From Alcanivorax sp. DP30 (GTDB taxonomy: Bacteria > Pseudomonadota > Gammaproteobacteria > Pseudomonadales > Alcanivoracaceae): 64,000 bases of DNA. Both the position numbers and the translations under genes were made by a program. Numbering within the stretch: position 1 is the stretch's first letter; each line of letters starts with the position of its first letter. The notes below the pieces were generated by a model. The model made no database searches. It was given only the letters and a program-made list of their open reading frames with translations, and was not told the DNA's origin. Location: NCBI RefSeq assembly GCF_009882945.1, contig NZ_WTUY01000004.1:148858-212857 (forward strand), in the 5' to 3' direction. Positions 1 through 24,619 of this stretch are shown here, one piece after another.

Positions 1-97
1 GCCCGGCTCACCGAGCAAATTTTTGATGGCGGCTTTTTTGCGCTTTCCGCAAAAAAGGTGACAGCGGAAATTTGTCCGGTGCAGCCGTTTGTTAGAG
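1..97 (-). repeat. attC site of an integron cassette (left end cut by the window)
   Basis: This is an imperfect palindrome ending in GTTAGAG at 91-97. The outer arm starting at base 1 pairs with 62-95: CGGCT-CACC-GA in the left arm faces CGGCTGCACCGGA in the reverse complement of the right arm. The extra bases lie only on the right (plus-strand) side, which is the extrahelical-base signature of attC and sets the cassette orientation as minus strand. The sequence is closely similar to the attC at 1266-1370. The TAA stop of the adjoining gene is made by the TTA of its core box. Confidence 0.8.
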
Positions 98-628
98 CAT
101 GCCTGCATTTCGTAATAATGTTGCCGCACCAATTGCCTTCCGAACGGCGGCTCCAATTTCTGAGTGCTTACGTCCATTGGATATTGAGCAAAGTGCCTTC
201 AGCTCTTTTTCATTGCTGATTCTTGGGGCTGCCTCAATATTAATGGCTGAATTTACCGTTCTTACATAGACATAAATGCACTTTTTTTCAAATGCCTTAC
301 CTGTCTTAGCGCCAGAAGCTTTATAGGCGCTCCAGTCGTCAAGTTTTAACTTTGACAAGCCCTGATCATTTTTCATACGGAATGCCAATAATTTGTCGCA
401 GAGAGCCAAGCCTAAAGCTTCGTCTGTAGCGTTTGCATCAAGAACAACCGGATCTCCAAACTCAGAAATTCCGGCAATCGAGCACACAATGAACTTGTCT
501 TCGTTGTACAGGTATAGAGCCGCGCGCAGCTCGGTTCCGAGCCTCGCCTTAGCGTCAGTAATCTCCCGAGTGGATTGATCAGGCAATACCCTCATGCGTC
601 TCTTTTTCCTAAATAAATTCTCCAACAT
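92..628 (-). CDS. Integron cassette protein, hypothetical (178 aa)
   Basis: I do not recognise this protein. It starts MLENLFRKKRR, a basic N-terminus without a convincing signal peptide or membrane helix, and continues as a mixed alpha/beta soluble protein. I chose the ATG at 626-628, just after the attC core, because an upstream in-frame start at 652 would lie inside the attC palindrome (635-715). The stop TAA lies in the attC core box at 91-97, so CDS plus attC form one complete mobile cassette read on the minus strand. The surrounding sequence is visibly poorer in GC than the core genes after 2592, as is usual for cassettes. Its function cannot be inferred from sequence or context. Confidence 0.75.
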   Translation of the reverse strand: MLENLFRKKRRMRVLPDQSTREITDAKARLGTELRAALYLYNEDKFIVCSIAGISEFGDPVVLDANATDEALGLALCDKLLAFRMKNDQGLSKLKLDDWSAYKASGAKTGKAFEKKCIYVYVRTVNSAINIEAAPRISNEKELKALCSISNGRKHSEIGAAVRKAIGAATLLRNAGML

Positions 629-634
629 TGTGCG

Positions 635-715
635 CTCTAACGCCCGCAGCACGCGCGGCTTTGTAGTGGCGAAGCCGCAACGAAAAAGCCGTCGCCGTGC
701 CTGCGCTTGTTAACT
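635..715 (-). repeat. attC site of an integron cassette
   Basis: This 81-bp imperfect palindrome runs from CTCTAAC (635-641) to GTTAACT (709-715). The left arm CGCAG-CACG-CG-CGGCTTT faces CGCAGGCACGGCGACGGCTTT in the reverse complement of the right arm, so three single bases are unpaired, all on the right side. The loop holds a second small inverted repeat (GGCTT/AAGCC). The asymmetry gives the same minus-strand orientation as the neighbouring cassettes. Confidence 0.85.
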
Positions 716-970
716 ATGACTGGAAACCAACTTGGTACATTCATCGATAATTTCCGGAATACAGTTTTCTGCCGTGATGCCTATATTTTCATGGTCGTGT
801 TGTTCGTGCGCAAGAAGACCAAATGCTGCCAGCTCAGTTGGCCAATCAAGATCACGGTTGATTTCTCCGAGCTTGGCACAACCAATGTTAGGGTCAATGT
901 CACCCGCCAATATTTTTTTAGCAATTTTCAACGCATCAGCTAACATTTCGATTTTCTCAGTTTCGTCCAT
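710..970 (-). CDS. Integron cassette protein, hypothetical (86 aa)
   Basis: This is a small acidic protein starting MDETEKIEMLADALKIAKK, largely helical by composition, with a GLLAHEQHDHE segment in the middle and no signal peptide. The start ATG (968-970) is 14 nt after the attC core at 984-990, and the TAA stop is formed by the next attC core (709-715). Gene and palindrome therefore make a compact cassette. Short acidic helical cassette proteins are often immunity or antitoxin-like, but nothing here proves that. The overlapping plus-strand reading frames at 707-989 are rejected because they would read into the attC. Confidence 0.75.
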   Translation of the reverse strand: MDETEKIEMLADALKIAKKILAGDIDPNIGCAKLGEINRDLDWPTELAAFGLLAHEQHDHENIGITAENCIPEIIDECTKLVSSHS

Positions 971-983
971 AGCTTGCTTTTAC

Positions 984-1041
984 AGTTAACGCTGCGAGCA
1001 GCGGCGCGTGTTTTTGCGTCCGCTGCCTTGCCTGGTTAAGT
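984..1041 (-). repeat. Short attC site of an integron cassette
   Basis: This 58-bp imperfect palindrome runs from AGTTAAC (984-990) to GTTAAGT (1035-1041), the latter matching GTTRRRY perfectly. GCGA-GCAGCGG-CGC on the left faces GCAAGGCAGCGGACGC in the reverse complement of the right, again with extra bases on the right side only. Its length is near the minimum seen for attC sites. Confidence 0.75.
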
Positions 1042-1060
1042 GGCGATACACCCACCCTAC

Positions 1061-1267
1061 CTAAGGGCACGATGTGAGCCTGCGAACCAGAGCTGAATTT
1101 TGGCACCCGCAAGAACTGAAGACTTGAAGATACCCCCAACCTGAAATGTGGCCGCCCACAACGAACGGGAACACCGAGCCACAACCTATTATTTTTCTAA
1201 CGGCACCCAGTTGCTCGCTCATGGCACCGACTTGGAAGCTTACGCTGCCATAAAAAAGCAGAGCCAT
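1061..1267 (-). CDS. Possible small cassette ORF (68 aa)
   Basis: This is the only reading frame that fits the cassette between the attC sites at 984-1041 and 1266-1370. Its ATG overlaps the ATTTAAC core box, as is common for cassette genes, and it stops at 1061, 20 nt before the next attC. The product (MALLFYGSVSFQVGAM...) is uncharged and slightly hydrophobic, with several Cys and Gly, and resembles nothing I know. The cassette may instead be non-coding or carry a promoter only. Confidence is low because the length is close to chance. Confidence 0.35.
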   Translation of the reverse strand: MALLFYGSVSFQVGAMSEQLGAVRKIIGCGSVFPFVVGGHISGWGYLQVFSSCGCQNSALVRRLTSCP

Positions 1268-1370
1268 TTAACGCTCAGCTCACCGAGTAAATTTGCGATG
1301 GCGGCTTTTGTGCGCAATTATGCACAAAAGATGACAGCGAAAATTTATCCGGTGCAGCTGATTGTTATGT
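1266..1370 (-). repeat. attC site of an integron cassette
   Basis: This 105-bp palindrome is bounded by ATTTAAC (1266-1272, a perfect RYYYAAC box) and GTTATGT (1364-1370). The arm CAGCT-CACC-GAGTAAATTT faces CAGCTGCACCGGATAAATTT in the reverse complement of the right arm. Its sequence is nearly the same as the attC at 1-97, so at least two cassettes here carry one attC subtype, as in sedentary chromosomal integrons. Confidence 0.85.
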
Positions 1371-1742
1371 GACCCCTTGGCTTGATAAAACACTTCTAAC
1401 TTGCTCTTCATTCTCAGCATATTCCTCTACAAGATAACCGATCAAATCCTCGACGCTTCTGCCTACCTCTCTGACCTCATCCAGACCATCAACGCAGTAA
1501 ACAACGAAAACAGGCGTCGCCCCGTCAAAATAGAACCCTGTTATTGTGTGGTCTGACTCCCACAGAGGCGTTACGTCCAGGCCAGACGGATAAAAAGCTT
1601 CCGACTCAAGGTAATACTTTGGCTCATTGCATCTGAACTCCAGATCTTCGTGAACAAACTCACCTCGAGTAAGCTTCAATAACGCACTCGTCAAATTAAG
1701 CTTACTGATTTTAAGTTTTCTGTCGTGCTCAGAAGCCCTCAT
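1365..1742 (-). CDS. Integron cassette protein, hypothetical (125 aa)
   Basis: This is an acidic soluble protein. The N-terminal third is basic (MRASEHDRKLKISKL); the rest is rich in Glu/Asp with a hydrophobic strand pair (TITGFYFDGATPVFVVYCVDGL) and ends in an acidic helix. The layout is reminiscent of small SUKH/SMI1-type immunity proteins, but this is only an impression. The ATG follows a G/TTATGT junction at 1759-1765, which is the upstream cassette boundary, and the stop is formed by the attC core at 1364-1370. It is the most upstream (first) recognisable cassette of the array. Confidence 0.75.
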   Translation of the reverse strand: MRASEHDRKLKISKLNLTSALLKLTRGEFVHEDLEFRCNEPKYYLESEAFYPSGLDVTPLWESDHTITGFYFDGATPVFVVYCVDGLDEVREVGRSVEDLIGYLVEEYAENEEQVRSVLSSQGVT

Positions 1743-1758
1743 GGCACCCTGCCTTTAC

Positions 1759-1830
1759 ACATAACAGCGTATTCAGTCGAACGGTTCGACATATCTTTTT
1801 TCGACATAATTCTTAATGGACCAAAGGGCA
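1759..1830 (-). other. Upstream end of the cassette array, possible attI-like region
   Basis: ACATAAC (1759-1765) is a core box identical to that of the attC at 1364-1370, but no palindromic partner follows on its right, so it is not an attC. The adjoining sequence holds two direct copies of TATGTCGAA (minus strand, about 1783-1805) and an inverted repeat GTCGAAC/GTTCGAC (1776-1790). attI sites have a single core box plus direct repeats, so this could be attI or a decayed one. No integrase gene follows in the 800 bp where it would be expected. Confidence 0.35.
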
Positions 1831-2590
1831 CATATCCGAAAAGCACTTTACTTTCAGCACCTTAACGAGCAAACGCGAGACTTTCTCGTCTGGCAAAACT
1901 CGAACGTGCGGCTTATTTCCGGGAATCAGGTGCACTTAACCGCTTCACATGACTTATTAAAATCACTTTATATCAACCGGTTAGCTTTTTCTGTAAGTCA
2001 TATCCTACAAAGATTAGGACCCATCTGTTGAGCACGACCCGCGCCATCATTTAAATATCGTGCTTCGGAATAAATACGCCAACGACATCCACACAGCATC
2101 CTCCCCGTTAGAGTGAGTCGAGGAACGGAGCCCTGTGACGGCGCAGAGCAAAAAACCTGTCTGAGCGGAGCGAGTCTTTTTTGCGTCCGTCACAGGGCGA
2201 GTACCGGAGTGTGCCCGCGAAGCGGGTCGAACGGAGTCGGGGCAAGGGGGCGGAAGCGGGGGTTTGCAAAACATGTTTTGCCCGCTGGAGCGCCATTCCC
2301 ATACCGGGGAATGGCCGGAATGCCAGAGGGGTGTCGCGTAGCACCCCTTTGGGCCCGTCCGGCGAGGACACTCACGGTTATCGGTTCGATGGCATCACAG
2401 GTTGGCAGCAAGCCATCCAGGCGGGGACCACCATCACCGCAGGTTCGCACCTCGAGAGGTGCTCCTACAGCAACCCAGACCTCCAATGAACCAGGCCCAG
2501 ACCACGCGGCGCATGGCGCCTACAAGAACGCCCCCTCTGTGGGTTACAATGTCTCCCCTTATGCACAGTTACTGACCATTACGAGGTTCC
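1831..2590. other. Noncoding, hairpin-rich stretch between cassette array and ilvD
   Basis: I see no credible gene here; a 71-codon frame at 1816-2031 has no RBS or recognisable product. Bases 2131-2353 hold five inverted repeats in close succession. CCCTGTGACGG pairs with CCGTCACAGGG (2131-2141/2187-2197), with an inner GCAAAAAA/TTTTTTGC pair. GCCCGC/GCGGGT lies at 2213-2227. GCAAAACATGTTTTGC lies at 2266-2281. CCATTCCC pairs with GGGAATGG (2293-2314). AGGGGTG/CACCCCT lies within 2323-2353. A REP copy follows at 2442-2470. A TACAAT at 2545-2550 may be the -10 box of ilvD. Confidence 0.6.
2442..2470 (-). repeat. REP-like element, CTCGAG-core family (copy 1)
   Basis: Read on the minus strand this is CTGTAGGAGCACCTCTCGAG followed by GTGCGAACC, the same family as the copies at 7715, 21817 and 21936. 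The CACCTCTCGAGGTG core is self-complementary and can fold into a small hairpin. It lies in noncoding DNA. Confidence 0.75.
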
Positions 2591-2591
2591 C

Positions 2592-4439
2592 ATGCCGCAG
2601 TATCGCTCCCGTACCACCACCCATGGCCGCAATATGGCCGGCGCCCGTGCCCTGTGGCGCGCCACGGGCATGAAGGACGGTGACTTCGGCAAGCCGATTA
2701 TTGCCATCGCCAACTCTTTTACCCAGTTCGTGCCCGGTCACGTGCACCTGAAGGACATGGGGCAGCTGGTGGCCGGCGAGGTAGAGAAGGCCGGCGGGAT
2801 CGCCAAGGAATTCAACACCATTGCGGTGGATGACGGCATCGCCATGGGCCACGACGGGATGCTCTACTCCCTGCCCAGCCGCGACATCATTGCCGATTCC
2901 GTGGAGTACATGGCCAACGCCCACTGCGCCGACGCGCTGGTGTGCATTTCCAACTGCGACAAGATCACCCCCGGCATGCTGATGGCCGCCATGCGCCTGA
3001 ACATCCCGGTGATCTTCGTCTCCGGCGGCCCCATGGAAGCGGGCAAGACCAAGCTGGCCGAGGGCAAGCTGGATCTGGTGGACGCCATGGTGATGGCAGC
3101 GGATGACAGCGTGGACGACGAGACGCTCAACGAGGTGGAGCGCTCCGCGTGTCCCACCTGTGGATCCTGCTCCGGCATGTTCACCGCCAACTCCATGAAC
3201 TGCCTGACCGAAGCCCTGGGCCTGTCCCTGCCGGGCAACGGTTCCCTGCTGGCCACCCACGCCGACCGCCGCGAGCTGTTCCTGGAAGCGGGCCGTCGCA
3301 TCGTGGATATCACCCGACGCTATTACGAGCAGGACGAGGAAGCGTTGTTGCCGCGCAATATCGCCACCGTGCAGGCGTTCGAGAACGCCATGAGTCTGGA
3401 CATCGCCATGGGCGGGTCCACCAACACCGTCCTGCACTTGCTGGCGGCGGCCCTGGAAGGGGAAGTGGACTTCACCATGGAAGACATCGACCGCCTGAGC
3501 CGCAAGGTGCCGTGCCTGTCCAAGGTGGCGCCGGCCACCCAGAAATACCACATGGAAGATGTGCACCGCGCCGGTGGCGTGATGGGCATCCTTGGGGAGC
3601 TGGACCGCGCCGGGCTGCTGCACCGCGACATCCCCATGGTGCATTCGGCCACCGTGGCGGAGGCACTGGAGCATTACGACATCATGCGCACCCAGGATGA
3701 GGGCGTGCGCAAGATGTTTACCGCTGGCCCTGCCGGCATCCCTACCCAGACCGCCTTCAGCCAGGACACCCGCTGGGAGAGCCTGGATGATGACCGCGAG
3801 AACGGCTGCATCCGCAACTACGAGCATGCCTACAGCAAGGACGGTGGCCTCGCCGTACTCTACGGCAATATCGCCGAGCGCGGCTGCATCGTGAAAACCG
3901 CGGGTGTCGACGACTCGATCCTTACCTTCACCGGCCGTGCGCGGGTGTTCGAATCCCAGGATTCTGCGGTGCGCGCCATCCTTGGCGATCAGATCGTGGC
4001 TGGTGACGTGGTGGTGATCCGCTATGAAGGCCCGAAAGGTGGCCCGGGCATGCAGGAAATGCTCTACCCCACCAGCTACCTGAAATCCAAGGGGCTGGGC
4101 AAGCAGTGTGCCCTGCTCACCGATGGCCGTTTCTCCGGCGGCACCTCTGGCCTGTCCATCGGCCATGCATCTCCGGAAGCTGCCGAGGGCGGCGCCATTG
4201 CCCTGGTGGAAGAAGGCGACACCATTGCCATCGATATCCCCAACCGCACCATCAACCTGGATATCACCAATGAGGAGCTGGCCCACCGCCGCACGCACAT
4301 GGAAAACCGTGGCAAGCTGGCCTTCAAACCCAAGGAAATTCGTCCGCGCCGGGTTTCCACCGCGCTGAAGGCCTACGCGGCCCTGACCACCAGTGCCGAC
4401 CGGGGTGCAGTTCGGGATCTCAGCCAGATCGGCGATTGA
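2592..4439 (+). CDS. ilvD: Dihydroxy-acid dehydratase
   Basis: This enzyme dehydrates 2,3-dihydroxy-isovalerate and 2,3-dihydroxy-3-methylvalerate to the 2-oxo acids, the third shared step of isoleucine/valine synthesis in the cytosol. Its 615 aa match the E. coli enzyme nearly end to end. Visible motifs are the [18 protein letters not shown] start, D80-D81 (Mg2+ site), C122 in SNCDK and C193 in TCGSCSGM, which with an early Cys bind the Fe-S cluster, and the C-terminal [20 protein letters not shown] motif. It stands alone, with a strong rho-independent terminator just after the stop. The large open frames on the opposite strand are shadows of this GC-rich gene. Confidence 0.98.
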
Positions 4440-23733: not shown

Positions 23734-24619
23734 TTCTTTTCTCAAGCACCTTGAGTCTGAACGGCGGCTTTCACCGCATACGGTCAGCAATTATCAGCGA
23801 GATCTGAAAGAGGCCTCTCGGATATTGGGGTCCCGCGACTGGGCGGACATTACCGTACATGACATTCGCTCACTGGTGGCCACGCTCCACCGCCAGGGAA
23901 AAGGCGGCAAGACCATCGCGCGCCTGCTTTCCACACTCCGAACGTTCTACCGGTATTTGATGCGTGAAGGCATCGCCAAAGACAATCCGGTAATCGATGT
24001 TCGCGCCCCCAAGAGTGGCAAGCGCCTGCCCAAGGCACTGGACGCGGATCAGGTGACCCAACTACTGGATGCCGGCACCGACAAGGGCGACCCACTGAGC
24101 CTGCGAGACCAGGCCATCATGGAGCTGTTCTATGCCTGTGGTCTGCGATTGGCGGAGTTGCTGAGCCTGAACCTGGACAGTATCGACATGTCCGCCGCGC
24201 AATTGCTGGTGACAGGCAAAGGCAACAAGACCCGCCAGCTGCCCATGGGCAAACCCGCCGTCACCGCCCTCAAGCGCTGGCTCAAGGCCCGCACCCTGTT
24301 CGTCAAGGACAGCACCGAGAATGCGGTTTTTCTCAGCAAGCATGGCAAGCGGCTGTCGCCCTCCAGCGTCCAGCAACGCCTCAAGCGCCATGCTCTGGAG
24401 CGCGGGCTGGATGACCACCTGCATCCCCACAAGCTGCGCCACTCCTTTGCTACCCATCTGCTGGAATCCTCCGGCGACCTGCGCGCCGTCCAGGAACTGC
24501 TCGGCCACGCCGACCTGGCCACCACCCAGGTCTATACCCATCTGGATTTTCAGCATCTGGCCCAGGTGTACGACGGGGCACATCCAAGAGCACAGAGAAA
24601 AAAAGACGAAGAGGAATAG
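23675..24619 (+). CDS. xerC: Tyrosine recombinase XerC
   Basis: XerC with XerD resolves chromosome dimers at dif. The 314-aa protein has the N-terminal SAM-like core (FLKHLESERRLSPHTVSNYQRDL) and the catalytic set R (ACGLRLAELL), K (TGKGNKTRQLP), HxxR (HKLRHSFATHLL), H (LLGHADL) and nucleophile Y (TTQVYTHLDF). The only usable start is the ATG at 23675, which lies in heptad element 5. Residues 1 to ~20 (MNSEKNGASDVINYSLLTI) are encoded by the repeat and replace the family's usual short N-terminus. No Shine-Dalgarno is visible. The catalytic domain is intact. Confidence 0.95.
   Translation: MNSEKNGASDVINYSLLTIHSFLKHLESERRLSPHTVSNYQRDLKEASRILGSRDWADITVHDIRSLVATLHRQGKGGKTIARLLSTLRTFYRYLMREGIAKDNPVIDVRAPKSGKRLPKALDADQVTQLLDAGTDKGDPLSLRDQAIMELFYACGLRLAELLSLNLDSIDMSAAQLLVTGKGNKTRQLPMGKPAVTALKRWLKARTLFVKDSTENAVFLSKHGKRLSPSSVQQRLKRHALERGLDDHLHPHKLRHSFATHLLESSGDLRAVQELLGHADLATTQVYTHLDFQHLAQVYDGAHPRAQRKKDEEE

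Follow-up and report, generated by a model that had tools for sequence, protein, structure and literature searches.

Integrons are usually seen as one integrase gene, one attI site and one cassette array lying side by side, and arrays that lack an integrase are usually taken as debris. Sedentary chromosomal integrons of the Vibrio type possess an IntI of the VchIntIA family, an attI and attC-bounded cassettes of one orientation, lie in the chromosome and are variable in content, and all of these features recur in Alcanivorax. In contrast to the Vibrio superintegron type, however, the Alcanivorax cassettes are split over about ten short arrays at distinct loci. Every array has an attI to itself, and just one of them lies beside intI. 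CALINs, which also have several attC sites and no integrase nearby, have been proposed to be degraded integrons (PMC9024848); the array studied here differs from such a degraded integron in that it keeps a conserved attI and its genome keeps an intact IntI. More than one attI copy per integrase is known from the delta-attI-type cassettes of mobile integrons, which are functional with IntI1 (PMC12901181), but there attI pieces replace attC within one mobile array, whereas in Alcanivorax complete attI modules stand at the head of separate arrays in the chromosome. A literature search outside subscription journals found no report of several attI-headed chromosomal arrays per genome and none of Alcanivorax integrons, which does not in itself prove novelty.

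The window analyzed is a stretch of 64,000 nucleotides (C22:148858-212857, in coordinates of the source contig) from a genome of 3.62 Mb, and the array enters it from the left. From the argA side to window position 1765, about 11 attC sites (some assigned by eye) are found over 5.8 kb; the array does not stop at the left end of the window but crosses a 26-N assembly gap (C22:148832-148857) that abuts position 1, and its terminal attC (C22:144820-144920) adjoins argA. The array is larger than in the original prediction, made from the window alone, of at least four cassettes. Because a stricter attC heuristic missed sites with an extrahelical base, a covariance model was used instead (R1; 32 seeds from the genus, 18 pairs, one extrahelical base). 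Of the four minus-strand attC sites that had been proposed, R1 finds three at E-values of 2e-6 to 3e-8, at 634-716 (41.4 bits, E = 3.3e-8), at 983-1042 (58-60 bp; 34.7 bits, E = 2.2e-6) and at 1265-1371 (the attC of the first cassette; 40.0 bits, E = 8.1e-8), and the palindromes are thus attC sites. Three of the 32 seeds (WARR_389, WARR_1044 and WARR_1818) were taken from the window array, so the seed sites match R1 partly by construction; 983-1042 is a non-seed site. The fourth site (1-97, minus strand) is genuine and truncated, its R' arm having been lost in the gap; in two blocks it is 86-87% identical to 1273-1367, which bears out the claim that the attC sites at 1-97 and 1266-1370 are near copies. 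All R1 matches in the window lie on the minus strand and show the R''/R' cores, the L arms and the extrahelical base of integron attC sites, and the sizes and orientation of the sites and the polarity of the array were correctly described. A scan against Rfam gave no match.

The minus-strand cassette ORFs at 92-652 (186 aa), 710-970 (86 aa, its stop codon within the attC core box) and 1365-1742 (125 aa, in the first cassette) belong to no Pfam family, and a short minus-strand cassette of about 220 bp (1043-1264) holds only a doubtful 68-aa ORF. Farther left, beyond the window, one cassette encodes TPR repeats and another a DUF2199 domain (Pfam). The flanking host genes are ilvD (2592-4439, plus strand) and, outside the window, argA; the array occupies a chromosomal locus between these two genes and is therefore not a mobile integron.

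The array is headed by an attI, which the original prediction had missed. Upstream of intI elsewhere in the genome lies the attI ATGTCGAAAAAAGATATGTCGAACGATTCGACTGAATACGCTGTTATG, followed by cassettes, and this sequence recurs on the minus strand at window positions 1762-1813 (attI core of type A, AGAATTATGTCGAAAAAAGATATGTCGAACCGTTCGACTGAATACGCTGTTA; 66.3 bits with the attI-core model R2), exactly where the first cassette starts, and therefore the window array is attI-headed. The two attI sites are 94.5% identical over 55 bp, and their similarity stops precisely where crossover is expected, at G^TTA between 1765 and 1764. Next to the window attI, a conserved upstream module (1814-2040, minus strand) is, in the module alignment, the counterpart of the intergenic region between intI and attI, and it shows 88% identity over 316 bp with the same locus in A. 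profundi. The module contains a conserved box, CTTTGTAGGATATGACTTACAGAAAAAGCTAACCGGTTGATATAAAGTG (1964-2012, minus strand), which is common to A, B and D modules and is a candidate Pc promoter or operator. We regard the box as a probable promoter of the cassettes or its control site; a scan of the module with the sigma-70 consensus gave no convincing minus-strand promoter, the scan itself being uninformative. The attI core also contains a perfect inverted repeat, GTCGAAC-G-GTTCGAC (window 1776-1790), which is followed by a T run on the plus strand and scores as terminator-like.

For the orientation of the array an integrase had been expected to its right, and the absence of one before ilvD had been pointed out; we sought an intI remnant at 1766-2591 and found none. 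No integrase lies beside the array, as had been stated, but a profile search of the whole genome finds an intact one elsewhere, which had gone unseen. The sole integron integrase of the genome (C22:939240-940178) is of intact length, scores 392 bits against TIGR02249 (cutoff 265) and lies near gcvP on the same contig, 790 kb from the window array. Its alignment with V. cholerae IntI4 (PDB 2a3v; E = 2e-84) covers the full length and shows that it has the tyrosine-recombinase residues R, K, H, R, H and Y; the enzyme is 97-99% identical to its relatives in A. nanhaiticus 19-m-6 and Alcanivorax sp. S6407. In this genome, intI is adjacent to an attI and an array only at the gcvP locus and not at the window array. 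The attC scores in the intI-linked array are weak (15.8-17.0 bits with R1), and an IS3-family element (L015 948-2290; C22:940948-942290) splits the attC of the first cassette there. In other species, many arrays contain near-identical IS3-like copies of 1.3 kb, and this element was left out of the cassette counts. A tyrosine recombinase within the window (24035-24556) is of the Xer type and not IntI, its scores with the IntI model being only 76 and 58 bits. Among 17 Alcanivorax genomes, four possess arrays and no IntI above the cutoff. In G004 the IntI match is split (C1:3088080-3090244, L098), with about 1.2 kb between residues 46-314 and 3-46; an insertion has probably disrupted the gene.

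To what extent such attI modules occur in the genus is evident from several searches. A similarity search with the window region gave matches in 16 of the 17 Alcanivorax genomes, up to five per genome, and R2 found 87 sites in all 17, most of them followed by attC sites in the expected orientation. Over 195 genomes at the order level, R2 matched two Alcanivorax genomes and gave only one marginal match in the other 193. Two further types, D and E, which head attC arrays that had first seemed to be without attI, were found by comparing the DNA upstream of the first attC. With all five types there are 143 modules in the 17 Alcanivorax genomes, ranging from 4 to 12 per genome, and about 11 in the source genome, where four types are represented (A 3, B 1, C 2, D 5). 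When the 150 best attC sites are considered, a module is found upstream in the same strand and no more than 8 kb away in 137 cases, and an opposite-strand module in no case, the chance expectation being roughly 0.9% per attC; most of the remaining 13 lie near contig ends, as judged by eye from their positions. In the source genome, at least one attC is found downstream of nine or ten of the 11 modules. The module at C21:122119 has only one weak attC downstream, and the type D module at C22:674093-674315 (L160) has no detectable one, which makes it either an empty or a dead attI. That mobile elements had spread the module was considered and rejected, as no match was found in 72,556 plasmids, 50,697 phages or viral contigs.

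The window array probably belongs, as one of several cassette arrays, to a dispersed chromosomal integron, in which a single IntI would serve many attI sites in trans. It is a genuine integron array with strong anatomy and a plausible, putative function in trans. With at least two attC sites and the integrase 790 kb away, the array fits the working definition of the CALIN-type array that had been proposed, and IntegronFinder would label it so because attI sites outside class 1 go undetected (PMC9024848). Since it has an attI of its own, the genome has an intact IntI and attI-headed arrays are found genus-wide, it is best regarded as an integrase-distant array of a multi-site integron and not simply as an orphan cluster; loss of the integrase, the other possibility raised in the original prediction, is not favored, given the array's own attI and an IntI of 392 bits in the genome.

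In this dispersed integron, the single intI near gcvP would supply the integrase for many attI sites. These lie at fixed chromosomal positions, argA-ilvD among them, and every one of them has a conserved module upstream. IntI would act in trans: at each attI it would insert circular cassettes at G^TT by way of their folded attC, and it would excise cassettes through attC x attC recombination; each attI would therefore head a short, changing array, whose first cassettes would probably be read from a promoter in the upstream module. The data establish the anatomy, the homology of the attI sites, their colocalization and common orientation with attC across the genus, the conserved loci, the turnover of cassettes and their sharing between arrays at exact boundaries; present trans action at the remote sites, acceptance of several attI types by one IntI and the promoter role of the module are what we infer. 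Recombination by IntI at the window attI itself would have only indirect support, from cassette turnover and exactly bounded shared cassettes seen at remote sites other than this one. Somewhat less firmly, we favor the view that each genome has 5-12 conserved attI loci, of up to four types, where the cassettes are maintained and rearranged through one intI, that several cassettes would be promoter-proximal at once, and that loci may switch type. Selectivity for the cognate attI is usual among IntI enzymes, whereas a genome here may contain as many as four attI types and a single IntI; some of the sites may therefore be dead. Cassette exchange could also take place by attC x attC recombination only, or similar modules could recombine homologously. 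Provided that attI remains functional in arrays distant from intI, many 'CALINs' may be active and would have been overlooked, as searches for attI are confined to class 1. Several newly captured cassettes would then be expressible in parallel, and expression would not be confined to the leading cassettes of a single array. The several attI types of Alcanivorax and its related integrases should make it a tractable system for attI specificity, trans action and the spread of attI copies.

Comparisons between species show fixed loci with changing cassettes. The attI loci are syntenic across species and most positions are kept, whereas the cassettes are not. The module tree groups mostly by locus, the nearest neighbor being at the same locus for 27 of 38 modules. 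The argA-ilvD interval is conserved in the genus, and the module in it is of type A in the source genome, A. profundi and G001, of type D in G004, G011 and G016, and of type E in DG881 and A. nanhaiticus; in G009 almost nothing lies between the conserved flanks. Moreover, a cassette that comes first after the attI in one of G007 and G014 lies 2 kb deeper in the other (98.1% identity), as expected if cassettes are added at attI. Remote and intI-linked arrays of one genome have single cassettes in common, bounded exactly by GTT, in G007 (L103 and L105; 97.2% over 395 bp), G014 (93.6%) and G006 (97%), as do two D-headed arrays of G004 (99.7%); such cassettes are also common to different species. 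In G012, a cassette that immediately follows a remote attI matches a cassette within the intI array of G014 at 97.4% identity. A block of 1,151 bp that is identical between L097 and L133 of G004 (100%) was rejected as cassette evidence because its flanks are not cassette boundaries and its ORF appears transposase-like by eye.

It could also be argued that the remote attI arrays are a fossil record, that is, integrons that have lost intI and are now decaying as CALINs without any integrase action, which we regard as unlikely. A relic origin is suggested by A. borkumensis, in which intI fragments lie beside four of the five type-A attI sites (L087, L088, L089 and L090) and no intact IntI is present (G001, which we take to be A. 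borkumensis SK2). The fragments derive from different parts of intI (N-terminal, middle or C-terminal) and three of them are at equal distance from attI, which suggests repeated copying followed by independent decay; the four sites also cluster together in the module tree. These results suggest that intI-attI modules were copied and that intI was lost afterwards. In other species no intI remnant is left, and what persists is the module that corresponds to the intI-attI intergenic region. In the dispersed-integron reading, too, the attI copies are most likely copied intI-attI modules that have kept attI and lost intI. The five attI types likewise suggest several past integrases, and the fewer attC sites in genomes without IntI would fit decay, a suggestive difference only (p ~0.07) that is confounded by assembly quality. 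Against a loss of integrase action speak, however, attI cores that are far more conserved than the adjacent DNA: in remote pairs at the same locus the core is 89% identical, compared with 57% in the adjacent 128 bp, a contrast that is partly biased because the sites were found by attI similarity, unlike the D modules, which were found from attC first. The sister species DG881 and NORP25 differ wholly in their cassettes at another remote locus, where the attI is unchanged and the flanks are 96.3% (upstream) and 95.7% (downstream) identical, and the cassette blocks of 6.9 and 4.8 kb have nothing in common. Cassettes that are 97-99.7% identical with exact GTT boundaries across remote arrays, and the lack of an intI remnant at most remote sites, also argue against mere decay. 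Thus the conserved attI sites and the dynamic relatives speak against degraded remnants, and the A. borkumensis fragments speak for a relic origin.

Very improbable is an origin at a non-classical genomic site (attG) into which cassettes were inserted off target, by which the array would be merely integron-like. Such insertion has been described in literature cited in PMC12901181, it likewise places cassettes at chromosomal positions away from intI, and integrase-less clusters are common (PMC9024848); the entry site here, however, is not a divergent genomic site but a conserved 52-bp attI with its upstream module, common to the intI locus and tens of sites in the genus, a homology that already contradicts this reading. 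That pieces of one array were scaffolded into several places is hardly credible: N-gaps and contig ends do fall in arrays and attI sites (contigs of G005 begin inside attI), but single-contig genomes of about 3.1-4.0 Mb (G001, G004 and G012) show the same dispersed sites, and the host gene order around each site is conserved between species.

The argA-ilvD interval also carries an extragenic repeat of the GTTAGAGTGAGTCGAGGAACGGAG ... GGTGATGCCATC type, inverted copies of which lie on both sides of the array (window 2108-2460 and L013 15540-15790). Several copies of the same repeat are found in the argA-ilvD interval of G012 (L129).
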